From: Buchnera aphidicola (Hyperomyzus lactucae)
Lineage (GTDB): Bacteria; Pseudomonadota; Gammaproteobacteria; Enterobacterales; Enterobacteriaceae
Reading direction: 5' to 3'
Length of the DNA stretch: 64,000 bases
Assembly (NCBI RefSeq): GCF_005081705.1
Contig: NZ_CP034876.1
Location: 449,863-513,862 of the forward strand
Shown: positions 30,184-39,077 of the stretch, piece by piece
How the letters are laid out: each line of letters opens with the position of its first letter
Position numbering within the stretch: position 1 is the first letter of the stretch
The notes under the pieces: generated by a model
The model's database searches: none
The model's input: the letters and a program-made list of their open reading frames with translations, nothing else
Told to the model about the DNA's origin: nothing
Program-made: the position numbers and the translations under genes

Positions 30184-30222
30184 TATAAAATATTTTTTAA
30201 TAAAAGGATATTGCATCAACTA

Positions 30223-31080
30223 ATGTACATTTTTTTTCCAAACTTGAATCCTGTTATTTTTTCTATCGGATCTGTTTCTGCTCGTTGGTACGGGCTTATG
30301 TATTTTATTAGTTTTTTATTTGCTATCTGGTATGGAAAAAAAAATAGCATTAAAAATAAAGAAATATGGTATAAAAAAAAAATAGAAATATTATTATATG
30401 CTGTTTTTTTAGGATCATGTATTGGCGGTAGAATAGGATATGTAATCTTTTATAATTTTTCATATTTTTCTCAAAATATATTATGTATATTCTATGTCTG
30501 GAAAGGTGGTATGTCATTTCATGGAGGATTGATAGGAGGCATGATTACAATATTATATTTTTCTTTAAAATATAAAAAAAAAATATTAGAAATATCTGAT
30601 TTTATAACTCCTTTAGTACCCTTTGGTTTAGGTGCTGGAAGATTGGGAAATTTCATCAATAGTGAACTATGGGGGCGTGTTTCGCCAAATTTTTCATATG
30701 CAGTTATTTTCCCTAATTCTCAATATCAAGATTTAGAAGCAATAAAAAAATATCCGCAATTAAAAACGCTATTCGATGAATATGGAGCACTGCCTCGTCA
30801 TCCTTCTCAATTATATGAATTTTTTTTCGAAGGTTTTATTTTATTTTTTATAATTTATTTTTTTTCAAAAAAAAACCGACCAACAGGAAGCATCAGCGGC
30901 TTATTTCTAGTTTCTTATGGTATATTTAGAACTATTCTAGAATTTTTTAGAGAACCTGATCCTCAATTAGGCCTGTTAAATAATATATTCACTATGGGAC
31001 AAATACTATCAATTCCAATGATTATTACTGGATTGATTATTATGTTTAAAGTTTTTTATAGAAATAAAATAGATTATTGA
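30223..31080 (+). CDS. lgt: Prolipoprotein diacylglyceryl transferase
   Basis: Inner-membrane enzyme that attaches diacylglycerol to the lipobox cysteine of prolipoproteins. About seven membrane segments are visible, with the active-site GGMSFHGGLIGG and the Lgt signature GLGAGRLGNFINSELWGR, and RHPSQLYE later. The ATG at 30223 aligns with the E. coli N-terminus (MYIFFPNLNPVIFSIG) and gives 285 aa. A TTG at 30211 would add four residues but sits only 2 bases after GGA; ATG is preferred. It contains an A10 tract. thyA follows at 6 bp, as in E. coli. Confidence 0.94.
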   Translation: MYIFFPNLNPVIFSIGSVSARWYGLMYFISFLFAIWYGKKNSIKNKEIWYKKKIEILLYAVFLGSCIGGRIGYVIFYNFSYFSQNILCIFYVWKGGMSFHGGLIGGMITILYFSLKYKKKILEISDFITPLVPFGLGAGRLGNFINSELWGRVSPNFSYAVIFPNSQYQDLEAIKKYPQLKTLFDEYGALPRHPSQLYEFFFEGFILFFIIYFFSKKNRPTGSISGLFLVSYGIFRTILEFFREPDPQLGLLNNIFTMGQILSIPMIITGLIIMFKVFYRNKIDY

Positions 31081-31943: not shown

Positions 31944-33263
31944 ATGAAATTTATATACATAAAAACTTGGGGTTGTCAAATGAATGAATATGATTCATCT
32001 ATGATAATCTCTTTATTACAAAAAAAAAATGAATATTCACTCACTGAATCCGTAGAAAATGCTGACATTTTAATATTAAACACTTGTTCAATTAGAGAAA
32101 AAGCTCAAGAAAAACTGTTCCATCAACTAGGAAGATGGAAAAAAATAAAAAACAAAAACCCTGAAGTTATTATTGCTGTAGGAGGTTGTGTAGCAACTCA
32201 AGAAGGTAAGGAAATTTTTAAAAGAGCAAATTATGTAGATATTATATTTGGCACTCAGACTTTACATAGATTGCCAAAAATGATTACTGAAGTAGAAAAA
32301 CATAGAAACTTATCTATAGATATTAGTTTTCCTAAATTAGAAAAATTTAAATATTTTTTACAACCTAAAAAAACAGGATATACAGCATCTATTTCTATTA
32401 TGGAAGGATGTAATAAATACTGTTCATTTTGTGTAGTACCTTATACGAGAGGAAATGAAATAAGTCGTCCATGTGATGATGTTCTATTTGAAATATCAAT
32501 GTTAGCAGAAAATGGTGTAAGAGAAATAAACTTATTAGGACAAAATGTCAATGCATATCAAGGTCCAACCTTTGATGGAAAAGTTTGTTATTTTTCAGAA
32601 CTAATAAGATTAGTAGCAGAAATAGATGGTATCGATAGAATACGTTTTACTACTAGTAATCCATTAGAATTTACTGATGACATTATTGAAGTATATAAAG
32701 ATACACCAAAATTAGTAAGTTTCTTACACCTTCCCGTACAAAGTGGTTCTAATAAAATACTCAATTTGATGAAACGTTCATATACAGTAGAAGAATATGA
32801 GTCTATTATTAAAAAATTAATCATTGCTAGACCTAATATTCAGATTAGTTCTGATTTTATTGTAGGATTTCCTGGAGAATCTGAAAGAGATTTTCAAGAA
32901 ACTATTCTGTTGATAAAAAAGATTAACTTTGATATGAGTTTTAGCTTTATATATTCTGCTCGACCTGGAACGCCTGCTTCAGAAATAGAAGACAATCTTA
33001 ATATTGAAGAGAAGAAAAAACGATTATATATTTTACAAAACCATATTAATGTACAAACCATGTCATGGAGTAGAAAAATGTTTGGAAGCATACAATCTAT
33101 CTTAGTAGAAGGTGTTTCTAATAAAAATATCATGGAATTATATGGTAGAACAGAGAATAATAGAATTGTTACTTTCAAAGGTTCACCGAATATGATCGGA
33201 CAATTTGCTAATTTAAAAATTAAAAAAATACATACACATTCATTAAAAGGCGAACTTATTTAA
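31944..33263 (+). CDS. miaB: tRNA-2-methylthio-N6-isopentenyladenosine synthase
   Basis: Radical-SAM methylthiotransferase that modifies A37 of tRNAs reading U-starting codons. The N-terminal domain carries the auxiliary-cluster cysteines in [19 protein letters not shown] and GGCVA; the radical-SAM CX3CX2C is CNKYCSFC; the C-terminal TRAM domain ends the protein. Length is 439 aa (E. coli 474, which has a longer tail). In E. coli ybeZ and ybeY follow; here ybeZ is missing and ybeY is next. Confidence 0.96.
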
Positions 33264-33280: not shown

Positions 33281-33749
33281 ATGAAAAACATTATTGTAAA
33301 CCTTCAAATTTGCTGTAAAAAAAATCAATATATACCAAAAAAATTACATTTTAAAAAATGGATACAAAAAATTTTATTAAAAAAAAAAAAATATTAATAT
33401 AATAACAATTCGTGTTGTAGATGAACTAGAAATTCAGTATTTAAACTATACTTATAGAGGCCAAAATAAATCAACAAATATTTTATCATTTCCTATTAAT
33501 AAATTTATTAAAATGAATCATAAATTATTAGGAGATTTAGTTTTATGTAAAAACATAATAAAAAAAGAATCTTTAAAATACAATAAAACCTTAGAGGCAT
33601 ATTGGGCACATATGACTATACACGGAACACTGCATTTATTGGGATATGATCATAAAAACAATAAAGAAGCAAAAGCTATGGAAAAAATGGAAAATCAAAT
33701 AATGTTATCTTTAAATTATTATAAACCATATACTTTAAAAAATTTCTAA
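33281..33749 (+). pseudogene. ybeY: Endoribonuclease YbeY, frame broken in an A13 tract (may be rescued by slippage)
   Basis: YbeY is a zinc endoribonuclease of rRNA maturation and ribosome quality control. The ATG at 33281 opens MKNIIVNLQICC and runs to thirteen A residues (33379-33391), after which the frame ends at TAA 33395-33397. Removing one A restores a 155-codon frame, exactly the E. coli length, through TIRVVDE, LNYTYRG, STNILSFP and the zinc motif HGTLHLLGYDH. A downstream ATG at 33513 would miss the N-terminal half. Conservation beyond the tract argues the gene is still under selection and may be expressed by -1 slippage. A sequencing error in the homopolymer is the alternative. 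Confidence 0.88.
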
Positions 33750-34703: not shown

Positions 34704-34792
34704 CAATATTTTTTAAAAAAAATATAGTGCTATTTATTTTAAAATTAATAAATATTATTTTTGTTAAAAATTTTATTTCAGAGATAATAAAG

Positions 34793-37372
34793 ATGGAAAA
34801 AGAATATTCCCCAAAAAAAATAGAACCTTTCGTACAAGAATATTGGAAAAAAAATAAAACTTTTCAAGTTAATGAAAACTCTAAAAAAGAAAAATATTAT
34901 TGTCTTCCTATGCTCCCATATCCTTCTGGAAAATTACATATGGGTCATGTTAGAAATTATACTATTAGTGACGTTATAGCTCGCTATCAAAGAATGTTAG
35001 GAAAAAATGTTTTACAACCAATGGGTTGGGATGCTTTTGGTTTACCTGCTGAAGAAGCAGCTATAAAAAATGATACTCCTCCTTTATATTGGACTGAAAA
35101 AAATATAAAACATATGAAAAAACAGCTTCAACTACTTGGTTTTGGTTATGATTGGAGTCGTGAAATAACTACATGTAAGCCAGAATATTATCGTTGGGAA
35201 CAATGGTTTTTTACTGAATTATATAAAAAAAAATTAGTCTACAAAAAAAATAGTTTAGTAAATTGGTGCTCTTATGATAAAACCGTTTTGGCTAATGAAC
35301 AAGTTATCGATGGTTGTTGTTGGAGATGTCAAAATAAAATAACAATAAAAAAAATTCCACAATGGTTTGTAAAAATAAGAAGTTATGCTGAGTCTTTATA
35401 CCAAGATTTAAATAAACTTACTCATTGGCCTGAAAATGTAAAAAACATGCAGAGGAATTGGATAGGAAGAATAGAAGGATTTGAAATTACTTTAAAGGTT
35501 TTTAATGCTTCTGAAAAATTAAAAACATTTACTGATAGATTAGATACTATAATGGGTGTTACATATATTGCTATATCTCCTTGTCATCAATTATCTATAG
35601 ATTTATCAAAAAAAAACGAATCTATAAAAAAATTTATAAAAAAATATGAATATATTTCAAAAGAAGAAAAAGAAAAAATAAAATACAAGGGAATTAATAC
35701 AAATATTTTTGTTATTCATCCAATTACAGAAAAAAAAATACCTATTTGGATTGCAAATTTTACTACACAAGAACATGGAACTAATTCGGTTCTTTCTACT
35801 CCTGCACACAATGAAAATCATTGGAATTTCGCAATTAAAAATAATTTAAAAGTAAAATATGTTATTTTAAATCCAAATAATAAAGAAATTAAACCTTATT
35901 GCTCTTATATGAACATAAAAGGAATACTATTTAATTCAAAAGAATTTAATGGGTTAAATTTTCAACAAAGTACCGAAAAAATAAAAAAAACATTATTGCA
36001 AAAAAAAATATTAAAAAATAAAATTAATTATAAATTACAAGACTGGTGTGTCTCAAGACAACGCTATTGGGGTGCTCCTATTCCAATGGCAACATTACAA
36101 AATGGAGATATAATACCTATATCAAAAGAAAAACTACCTGTACTTTTACCAGAAATTGACAAAAAAAATCATTTATTAAAGCAACCTATTAATCCTAATT
36201 CTAAATGGGCTAAAATTTTTATCAAAAAACAAAAAGCTATTAGAGAAACAGATACTTTTGATACATTTATAGAATCATCTTGGTATTATGTAAGATATAC
36301 TTGTCCACATTTTAACACGGGAATGATTGATCCAATAGCATCAAAATACTGGCTTCCTGTTGATCAATATATTGGTGGCATAGAACACGCTACTATGCAT
36401 TTAATGTATTTTAGATTTTTTCACAAATTATTGCGTGATTTTAAATTAGTCGATTTTGATGAACCAGTTAAAAATTTATTATGTCAGGGTATGGTTCTTT
36501 CTGATGCTTTTTACGAAATTGATGAAAATTCTCAAAAAAATTGGATTCATTCATCATCAGTTTTAATAAAACGTAACTTAAAAGGAGAAATCATTAAATC
36601 GTATAACAAACAAGGAAAAGATTTATTTTATGCCGGAATGATTAAAATGTCTAAATCTAGAAATAATGGAATAGAACCAGAATTAATCATTAAAAATTAT
36701 GGTGCAGATACAATTCGTCTATTTATCATGTTTGCTGCTCCTGTAGAAGCCTCACTAGAATGGAAAGAATCTGGAATTAAAGGAATACATCGTTTTTTAA
36801 AAAAACTTTGGTTATTAGCTTATAATTACATTAATTTAAAAAATAAACATGAAAAAATAGATTTTAATTTTTTAAATGATAAACAGAACGAATTACTCTG
36901 CCAATTACGCAAAACTATTACTAAAGTTTCTGATGATATCAGTCGCCGGCAAACATTTAATACTGCGATTTCTGCAATTATGGAATTGGTAAATAAATTA
37001 ATAAAAGCTCCCATGCAAGAAAAACAAGATCAATCAATTATGCGAGAATCTTTAATTTGCATAATTAAGATGCTTTATCCATTTACACCTCACTTTTGTT
37101 TTGTTGTTTGGAAATACTTCTGTAAAAATAGTTCAATTGAAGATCAAAAATGGCCTATTTTTAAAACAAAAACACTTTCAAATAAATATAATATTATTGT
37201 TATTCAAATTAATGGTAAAAAACGGTGTACTATAAAAATTTCTAACAATTTAAATAAAGAAGAAATATTTTTACATGCAAAAAATCAAACTATTATTAAA
37301 AAATATTTACAAAATATCAACATTAAGAAAATAATATATATCCAAAATAAAATAATAAATTTTGTAATATAA
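34793..37372 (+). CDS. leuS: Leucyl-tRNA synthetase with degenerate editing site
   Basis: Class I synthetase that charges tRNA-Leu. HIGH appears as HMGH in YPSGKLHMGHVRN and KMSKS as KMSKSRNNG, both intact. The CP1 editing domain is changed: E. coli TTRPDT reads TDRLDT, and the GHDQRD segment reads AHNENH, so the two aspartates (E. coli D342 and D345) are Asn340 and His343. Charging should work; proofreading of mischarged tRNA probably does not. The ATG at 34793 gives 859 aa (E. coli 860). An upstream TTG at 34727 would add 22 hydrophobic, unaligned residues and is rejected. Confidence 0.96.
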   Translation: MEKEYSPKKIEPFVQEYWKKNKTFQVNENSKKEKYYCLPMLPYPSGKLHMGHVRNYTISDVIARYQRMLGKNVLQPMGWDAFGLPAEEAAIKNDTPPLYWTEKNIKHMKKQLQLLGFGYDWSREITTCKPEYYRWEQWFFTELYKKKLVYKKNSLVNWCSYDKTVLANEQVIDGCCWRCQNKITIKKIPQWFVKIRSYAESLYQDLNKLTHWPENVKNMQRNWIGRIEGFEITLKVFNASEKLKTFTDRLDTIMGVTYIAISPCHQLSIDLSKKNESIKKFIKKYEYISKEEKEKIKYKGINTNIFVIHPITEKKIPIWIANFTTQEHGTNSVLSTPAHNENHWNFAIKNNLKVKYVILNPNNKEIKPYCSYMNIKGILFNSKEFNGLNFQQSTEKIKKTLLQKKILKNKINYKLQDWCVSRQRYWGAPIPMATLQNGDIIPISKEKLPVLLPEIDKKNHLLKQPINPNSKWAKIFIKKQKAIRETDTFDTFIESSWYYVRYTCPHFNTGMIDPIASKYWLPVDQYIGGIEHATMHLMYFRFFHKLLRDFKLVDFDEPVKNLLCQGMVLSDAFYEIDENSQKNWIHSSSVLIKRNLKGEIIKSYNKQGKDLFYAGMIKMSKSRNNGIEPELIIKNYGADTIRLFIMFAAPVEASLEWKESGIKGIHRFLKKLWLLAYNYINLKNKHEKIDFNFLNDKQNELLCQLRKTITKVSDDISRRQTFNTAISAIMELVNKLIKAPMQEKQDQSIMRESLICIIKMLYPFTPHFCFVVWKYFCKNSSIEDQKWPIFKTKTLSNKYNIIVIQINGKKRCTIKISNNLNKEEIFLHAKNQTIIKKYLQNINIKKIIYIQNKIINFVI

Positions 37373-38433: not shown

Positions 38434-39077
38434 ATGAAAAAATTATATGCAATATTTGGTGGAAATTTTGATCCCATTCATTATGGACATCTTTACTTAG
38501 CTAAAAATTTAGCACAAGAAATCTCTATAGAAAAAATAATATTTTTGCCAAATAAAAATCCTCCTCATAGAGAAAAAAGCAAAACATCCATTGTAGATAA
38601 AGTAAAAATGATTAAATTTGCTATTAATAATTACCGTTTATTTCAAATTAGCTATTTAGAAACAAAAAAGATGAGGTTTTTTTACACTATAGATACGTTA
38701 AAAAAAATTAGAAAAAAAATAGGTCACTCAAGACCTTTATGTTTTATAATAGGGGAAGATAACTTAAAATCTTTTAATCTATGGAAAGATTGGAAAAAAA
38801 TATTATTTTACTCTCATTTGTTAATTTGTCCTAGAAATCATAAAAAAAAAGTAACTCTCAATTAGAAAATTGGATTAATTCTCATCTTGTTAAAGATTAT
38901 CATTTACTACATCAACAATCATGTGGATTGATTTTTTTTTCTAATACACCAATGATTGATATTTCTTCAAGTCAAATAAGAAAAAATTATTCTACCGGTA
39001 AGAATTCTCATGGACTACTACCATCAATAGTAAACAAATATATTCTATTAAAAAAATTGTACCATGACGAAGATTAG
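38434..39077 (+). pseudogene. nadD: Nicotinate-nucleotide adenylyltransferase, frame broken at an A9 tract (may be rescued by slippage)
   Basis: NadD adenylates nicotinate mononucleotide in NAD synthesis. The first frame (ATG 38434) has the adenylyltransferase signature FGGNFDPIHYGH and CFIIGEDNL, then passes nine A residues (38842-38850) and stops at TAG 38863-38865. The homology continues in the next frame (LENWINSHLV, then MIDISSSQIRKN, the second conserved motif) to TAG 39075-39077. Adding one A gives 214 aa against 213 in E. coli. The unbroken part alone would lack the ISSSxIR substrate motif. Either polymerase slippage restores enzyme, or the gene is newly dead, or the homopolymer was misread. 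Confidence 0.87.

Follow-up and report, generated by a model that had tools for sequence, protein, structure and literature searches.

The ybeY gene of Buchnera aphidicola (Hyperomyzus lactucae) carries a run of 13 A residues that leaves its two halves in different reading frames. The locus raises the question of whether a gene broken in this manner still yields its protein and, if so, at which step the frame is restored. We analyzed the locus within a stretch of 64,000 nucleotides from this genome (here called the window) and compared it with its counterparts in the genus and beyond.

The ybeY locus in the window

The genome that contains the window consists of one chromosome and two small contigs, and a sequence search with the larger of the two contigs matched Buchnera plasmids exclusively (47 of 47 records, best identity about 85%). 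Gene names in the window were read from the open reading frames, and ybeY was named via Pfam. The gene order is miaB - ybeY - corC - leuS - holA - nadD, which contains the neighbor set of YbeY, miaB - ybeY - corC - leuS. The features of the locus are as follows.

31944 to 33263, + strand: miaB, the upstream neighbor, intact; open reading frame of 439 aa; a single open reading frame spans 0.99-1.00 of the gene in 36/36 loci
33281 to 33378, + strand: 5' segment of ybeY, residues 1-32 (MKNIIVNLQ...FKKWIQKIL), from the ATG start at 33281 up to the tract
33379 to 33391, + strand: A13 tract as assembled, out of frame; A12 or A15 would fit
33395 to 33397, + strand: TAA that closes frame 0 just past the tract, at codon 39 of the translation
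33381 to 33749, + strand: 3' open frame of ybeY, 122 codons and a stop at 33747-33749, with HGTLHLLGYDH inside and a match to PF02130
33831 to 34703, + strand: corC/ybeX, the downstream neighbor, intact; open reading frame of 290 aa; a single open reading frame spans at least 0.95 of the gene in 36/36 loci

Frame 0 from the ATG at 33281 gives MKNIIVNLQICCKKNQYIPKKLHFKKWIQKILLKKKKY and then the stop at 33395-33397; i.e., the ybeY of the window has no single continuous reading frame, and frame 0 ends at codon 39 after the A13. The ybeY span of 33281-33749 is 469 nt long, and one base fewer therefore corresponds to 155 codons and a stop. The downstream frame matches the Pfam YbeY family PF02130 (E = 3.1e-32, 110 bits against a cut-off of 25, model positions 25-127 of 129). 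It contains HGTLHLLGYDH, which conforms to HGxLHLLGYDH, the three-histidine zinc motif of the YbeY endoribonuclease family. The two halves were aligned separately with P0004, the full-length YbeY of 155 aa in UniRef from the A. pisum symbiont; the 5' half shows 78% identity over 32 aa (P0004 residues 1-32) and the 3' half 77% identity over 117 aa (P0004 residues 39-155), with both halves in register. An earlier note on this DNA had described ybeY as split by the tract with both halves encoding conserved YbeY, had obtained 155 codons by removing one base, and had pointed to a retained zinc site, all of which agrees with the present results.

Apart from the A13 tract, no A/T run in the 64-kb window exceeds 10, and 20 reach that length; in 35 comparable 15-kb stretches (532 kb), A/T runs of 12 occur six times and a run of 13 once. 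Over its full length, the intact relative P0001 can be aligned with the E. coli YbeY of known structure (1xm5). The tract is located just ahead of the strand VTIRVVD, and because the alignment of P0001 and 1xm5 has an indel at this position, extra or missing lysines are likely to be tolerated there.

Phase and age of the frame break in Buchnera

The phase of the tract was defined as the offset between the conserved TGG codon and the ITIR codons that flank it and was taken in 36 genomes of the genus, all of which have a YbeY above the family cut-off. The gene is out of frame at the tract in 26 of the 36 genomes (the window included) and in frame in 10. The phase of 24 of the 26 shifted copies needs a change of +1 or -2 (A10 in 23 and A9 in one, G026), whereas the window (A13) and G013 (A9) have the phase that needs -1 or +2. 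Counted among the other 35 genomes, the out-of-frame tract is A10 in 23 and A9 in 2. Across species, the tract forms a series of A10, A9, A13, in-frame A8, and loss of the tract; an in-frame A11 copy was not found among the 36 genomes, and P0007, which reads full length with KKKN, may be such a copy. The symbionts of A. pisum (G030), A. kondoi (G002), and S. graminum (G001) are among the 24, and their common A10 phase spans the Aphidini-Macrosiphini split, which is set at 65 My in the main analysis according to passages of PMC3164680. The copy of the U. ambrosiae symbiont (G017) is in frame.

An ATG or TTG is kept 26 or 29 codons ahead of the TGG in the upstream frame of 24 of the 26 shifted copies, and in G026 and G031 (L012 and L017) none of ATG, GTG, and TTG is present at the position where the gene usually starts. 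A full-length protein of 154 aa (P0011) is recorded as the counterpart of the G026 copy. The databases disagree on the shifted YbeY, which is given as 154-155 aa in P0004 (UniRef) and P0011 (NCBI) and as pieces of 102-111 aa in other NCBI records. P0004 has no listed contig, and its sequence was therefore probably corrected by someone. G016 and G022 are in frame at the internal tract, but each has its ATG thrown out of phase by an A10 that adjoins the start codon. P0006 (a cluster of 5 members) is a full-length protein otherwise identical to that of G016, and the start-proximal A10 break of G016 may be within-species variation or an assembly matter.

The age of the break was reconstructed on a midpoint-rooted FastTree tree from six neighboring proteins (lgt, thyA, miaB, corC, leuS, and holA), in which entries with less than 80% coverage were left as gaps. 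Parsimony gives six binary changes with a shifted root, or eight changes with three states, and label permutations need 8.9 changes on average, with six or fewer in 1.4% of 1000. A two-state model with equal rates has a shifted root with P 0.98; when the rates are left free, the gain rate falls to zero, so that a single ancestral break is followed by six restorations of the frame. As reconstructed from these sequences, the out-of-frame state appears to be ancestral to Buchnera, with six later returns to frame, and since six lineages are back in frame, the shift is not required. The phase split of 24:2 corresponds to one inherited phase and two switches on the tree and therefore counts species, not events. 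The tract of the window appears to be a derived, longer form that needs a correction opposite to that of A10.

Constraint, tract length, and frame breaks in other genes and genera

The used downstream frame has zero stops in all 26 shifted copies, the other two downstream frames having means of 14.0 and 11.9 stops (ranges 11-17 and 8-16), and the 25 codons ahead of the TGG are likewise free of stops in the used upstream frame of these copies. Nei-Gojobori (NG86) dN/dS ratios were pooled over all pairs, 325 of them shifted and 45 in frame. Downstream of the tract, the ratio is 0.25 in shifted species versus 0.30 in in-frame species, and upstream of it 0.44 versus 0.40; the yardstick values are 0.17 for miaB and 0.44-0.47 for holA. 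Because the pairs are not independent and the synonymous sites are partly saturated, these ratios show unrelaxed constraint and not an exact rate. Together with the stop-free frames, they show purifying selection on either side of the tract in the shifted gene. The ratio of 3.5 for the 5' part between the window and its sister comes from almost no synonymous change, as a single pair offers too few synonymous sites. The earlier note had held the halves to be equally conserved and unlike a decaying pseudogene. The first statement holds in part, since the 5' half evolves faster than the 3' half, as it also does in the in-frame species; the second is borne out by the stop-free frames and the unrelaxed ratios, and the relaxed dN/dS past the tract that the note had named as contrary evidence is absent.

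Each of the 26 shifted copies, including the window with its A13, has a long uninterrupted A run of at least 9 at the frame break, which is found in 4 of the 10 in-frame copies (Fisher p 0.0001, uncorrected for kinship). AAA makes up 95.3% of the Lys codons in six control genes, and the purity of the tract is therefore expected and is weak evidence. The alignment of the lgt-leuS region contains 55 clusters of A runs that reach A9 or more in one species or several, and the ybeY tract is the most widely shared of them; it is at least A9 in 30 of the 36 genomes and exactly A10 in 24, including the in-frame copy of G005. It shows 10 length changes on the tree. Eleven clusters reach A>=9 in 8 or more species, and this is the lowest count among them (the remaining 10 have 11, 11, 12, and 16-23), so that no tract of this set is steadier than the out-of-frame A10. 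Tract lengths were also compared within twelve hand-picked pairs of sisters or near relatives, ten of which have a ybeY run of at least 9 in the first member. Equal length within the pair was observed for the ybeY tract in 7/10, for other coding runs in 55/110, and for the remaining runs in 31/83; because 7/10 is not clearly higher than 55/110, short-term stability alone does not decide the matter.

The ybeY gene is not unique in this respect, since lgt and nadD also shift. The lgt gene is out of frame at A-rich tracts near codons 40-60 in 15 (L119, L127-L129, L131, L133, L134, L136-L139, L146, and L149-L151) of the 34 genomes of the genus that gave a call, out of 36. Eight of these copies are shifted one way and seven the other, and 14 of the 15 make up the whole of one clade; in the window, lgt (30211-31080, upstream of ybeY) is intact. 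The nadD gene of the window (38434-39077) is frameshifted at an A9 (38842-38850), and the same shift is present in the sister G012 (L145). It is shifted nearby at A9-A11 in G023, G027, G009, and G003 and is in frame in 20 of the remaining genomes of the genus, three doubtful ones and 7 without a call being left out.

A tblastn scan detected no frame break in lysS, lysA, miaB, corC, holA, or tusA; the same scan recovers 21 of the 26 ybeY breaks, and its zeros for other genes are therefore not proof. A single open reading frame spans at least 0.92 of lysA, miaB, corC, leuS, and holA in 36/36 genomes. The leuS gene is listed at 34727-37372 from an upstream GTG, and relatives match in frame only from approximately codon 23, which is probably close to the true start; frame breaks that the scan gave at the leuS start were taken as artifacts of the long annotation in the window. 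In L150 (G019), the frame of thyA changes near codon 189, where no long A run is present.

In other genera, 79 genomes were searched and 50 ybeY loci were examined, of which 24 are in frame between the anchors, 8 have a non-zero offset, and 18 have no call. Four of the 8 offsets were judged real, i.e., those of three g110 genomes (L154, L161, and L184) with A11 and one g45 genome (L186) with A10; the offsets of L160, L165, L173, and L179 were set aside as wrong anchors or doubtful. In g110, which belongs to the same family as Buchnera, the A11 break is at the homologous place of ybeY in 3/3 genomes examined, with two genomes sharing one phase and the third having the other. The breaks of g110 and g45 may have arisen independently or may have been inherited from deeper in the tree.

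Restoration of the frame and comparison with known systems

Taken together, the sequences suggest that ybeY is probably a working gene that is out of frame in the genome and is expressed via transcriptional slippage at the A tract. RNA polymerase would slip on the tract and produce mRNAs with differing A counts, and the fraction of mRNAs with a fitting length change would yield full-length YbeY with one lysine more or fewer. The altered lysine count would be located in a stretch between helix 1 and strand 2 that is presumably tolerant of length. In most relatives, the A10 would be corrected by one added A (or two fewer), and in the window, loss of one A (or gain of two) would correct the A13. 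The A run in ybeY is about as long as the RNA:DNA hybrid, and slippage would explain a run of this length in every shifted copy. Both correction signs are found, which slippage fits and one ribosomal mechanism does not easily. What the sequences show directly is the frame shift, how widely and deeply it is distributed, purifying selection on either side, and a run of at least A9 in every shifted copy; that slippage occurs at this site, at what rate, and during RNA synthesis instead of on the ribosome, is inferred from them.

Rescue of poly(A) frameshifts by slippage in other genes of Buchnera and Blochmannia is attributed to Tamas et al. 2008 in passages of PMC5009743, PMC3164680, PMC3017870, and PMC6260861. 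The earlier note was thus right that slippage at poly(A) is known in Buchnera, and its proposal that RNA polymerase slippage rescues ybeY is still the best explanation. It had missed that the state is ancestral, 26/36-wide, and mostly an A10 that needs +1 or -2; comparison of the tract in relatives, which it had advised, revealed a more widespread break than it had seen. In the Buchnera RNA data presented in passages of PMC5574713, 151 of 157 insertions but only 16 deletions are in homopolymers, and the overall per-nucleotide rates of insertion and deletion are similar. The commoner phase of ybeY, which needs an inserted A, agrees with these homopolymer insertions. The polymerase of E. coli is deletion-prone on an A11 tract in vitro, as cited in a passage of PMC6260861, and the insertion bias is therefore not general. 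According to the same passages of PMC5574713, no frame-restoring transcription error was detected in those Buchnera data; ybeY may lie below their detection depth.

A broader reading, which we regard as possible but doubtful, is that ybeY is a gene of programmed slippage throughout the genus. Selection would have kept the A10 in place from the common ancestor of the genus onward (at least 65 My on the calibration given in passages of PMC3164680), because the slip rate would itself set or buffer the level of this RNase of ribosome maturation in a bacterium that no longer has most of its regulators. The lineage of the window would then have been re-tuned to an A13 of opposite sign, and lgt and nadD would behave alike in other clades.

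The first alternative is ribosomal frameshifting, in which a -1 slip on A_AAA_AAA in the tract, as in dnaX, would give full-length YbeY from unedited mRNA. A -1 slip restores the phase of 24 of the 26 shifted copies, all with an A9 or A10 run, but the opposite sign is needed by the window and G013 and by 8 of the 15 shifted lgt copies; i.e., the carriers do not all have the -1 sign that a programmed site of this kind would require (2/26 opposite). A Shine-Dalgarno (SD)-like motif that could serve as the stimulator is near the tract in 1 of the 26 shifted copies only. When 10 of the 26 were folded, no more than a weak five-pair stem emerged (-1.09 kcal/mol), a coarse value from intervals without a common register, one of which lay largely upstream of the tract. 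The run of at least A9 in all 26 exceeds the length that a slippery heptamer needs. Ribosomal frameshifting in place of transcriptional slippage is thus unlikely and alone fits the window badly, although it may contribute besides slippage.

An assembly artifact confined to the genome of the window, where the true tract would be A12 or A15 and ybeY in frame, is less likely again and would be compatible with slippage in the rest of the genus. Homopolymer lengths are error-prone and the A13 is the longest such run in the window, and the break of G016 next to the otherwise identical P0006 indicates that single assemblies or strains can differ. On the other hand, an artifact leaves unexplained both the other 25 out-of-frame genomes and the truncated gene calls that exist for the symbiont of A. 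pisum, among others, in the 90% clusters P0012 (9 members, 5 contigs) and P0098 (8 members). Assembly error as a general explanation was ruled out, the break being common to 26 genomes.

Much less probable is a split gene in which internal initiation at a weak start past the tract gives a C-terminal YbeY of 100-120 aa. NCBI records do hold a YbeY of 102-111 aa for several Buchnera (P0012, P0013, P0015, P0017, P0019, and P0098), but these calls begin at differing codons, and the ATT of P0012 and P0013 is GTT in the window. An ATG, GTG, or TTG lies within 25 codons past ITIR in only 8 of the 26 shifted copies, the SD-like motif is as rare here as noted above, and the 5' segment, which is part of the solved E. 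coli fold, remains open and constrained. That ybeY is an inactivated, decaying pseudogene is scarcely credible. In favor of this reading, pseudogenes in Buchnera often arise through homopolymer indels (passages of PMC3164680), and a standard start codon is missing from two shifted copies. It was ruled out by the inferred root-level age of the break, the stop-free used frames in 26 copies, and dN/dS values like those of in-frame copies; over up to 70 My, inactivated DNA is largely gone according to passages of the same paper.

No earlier report of the Buchnera ybeY frameshift was found in the mostly open-access literature searched; ybeY is absent from the main text of PMC3164680 and from the text of PMC10851558. 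Passages of the former paper state that 42 of 69 pseudogenes are restricted to single genomes, unlike the ybeY break with its 26 of 36 Buchnera genomes, and its discussion suggests regulation by slippage; its Table 1 gives 1-18 homopolymer frameshifts per Buchnera genome. The Buchnera ybeY shift appears to be new and stands out by its age, by its breadth, and by a tract that is nearly constant at A10, while kept poly(A) frameshifts and slippage rescue were already known. A seemingly broken core gene stays out of frame across most of the genus without decay, and gene-loss counts and essential-gene lists of endosymbionts therefore undercount working genes. The species series is a natural experiment on slippage as tolerated noise versus a regulatory setting, and on slippage of the polymerase versus that of the ribosome.

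Protein evidence for murF is said to exist among the cases of Tamas et al. 2008, and ancient frameshifts maintained by selection in Blochmannia were reportedly described by Wernegreen, Kauppinen & Degnan 2010. Like the former cases, ybeY belongs to an AT-rich endosymbiont and is intact apart from an out-of-frame A run; they have transcript evidence, with 12-50% corrected as cited in a passage of PMC5009743, whereas ybeY is known from comparison, though throughout the genus. Buchnera mur genes with A10 are cited as an example of slippage in a passage of PMC6260861, which also lists slippage at A9-A11/T9 runs in Thermus dnaX and Shigella spa13 and mxiE. The shift site of ybeY is likewise an A run of 9-11 in most copies, although two functional products are not indicated for it. 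In Blochmannia, a frameshift and its tract persist between species without decay (passages of PMC3017870), and the tract and shift of ybeY do the same in another genus and gene set, with the shift placed at the root of Buchnera and a length of mostly A10. The same gene is listed as frameshifted in the independent lineage of Blochmannia turneri in a passage of PMC4389277, which counts homopolymer-frameshifted genes as intact. Since maintained ancient frameshifts are known in Blochmannia, ybeY of Buchnera is an unusually widespread further case.
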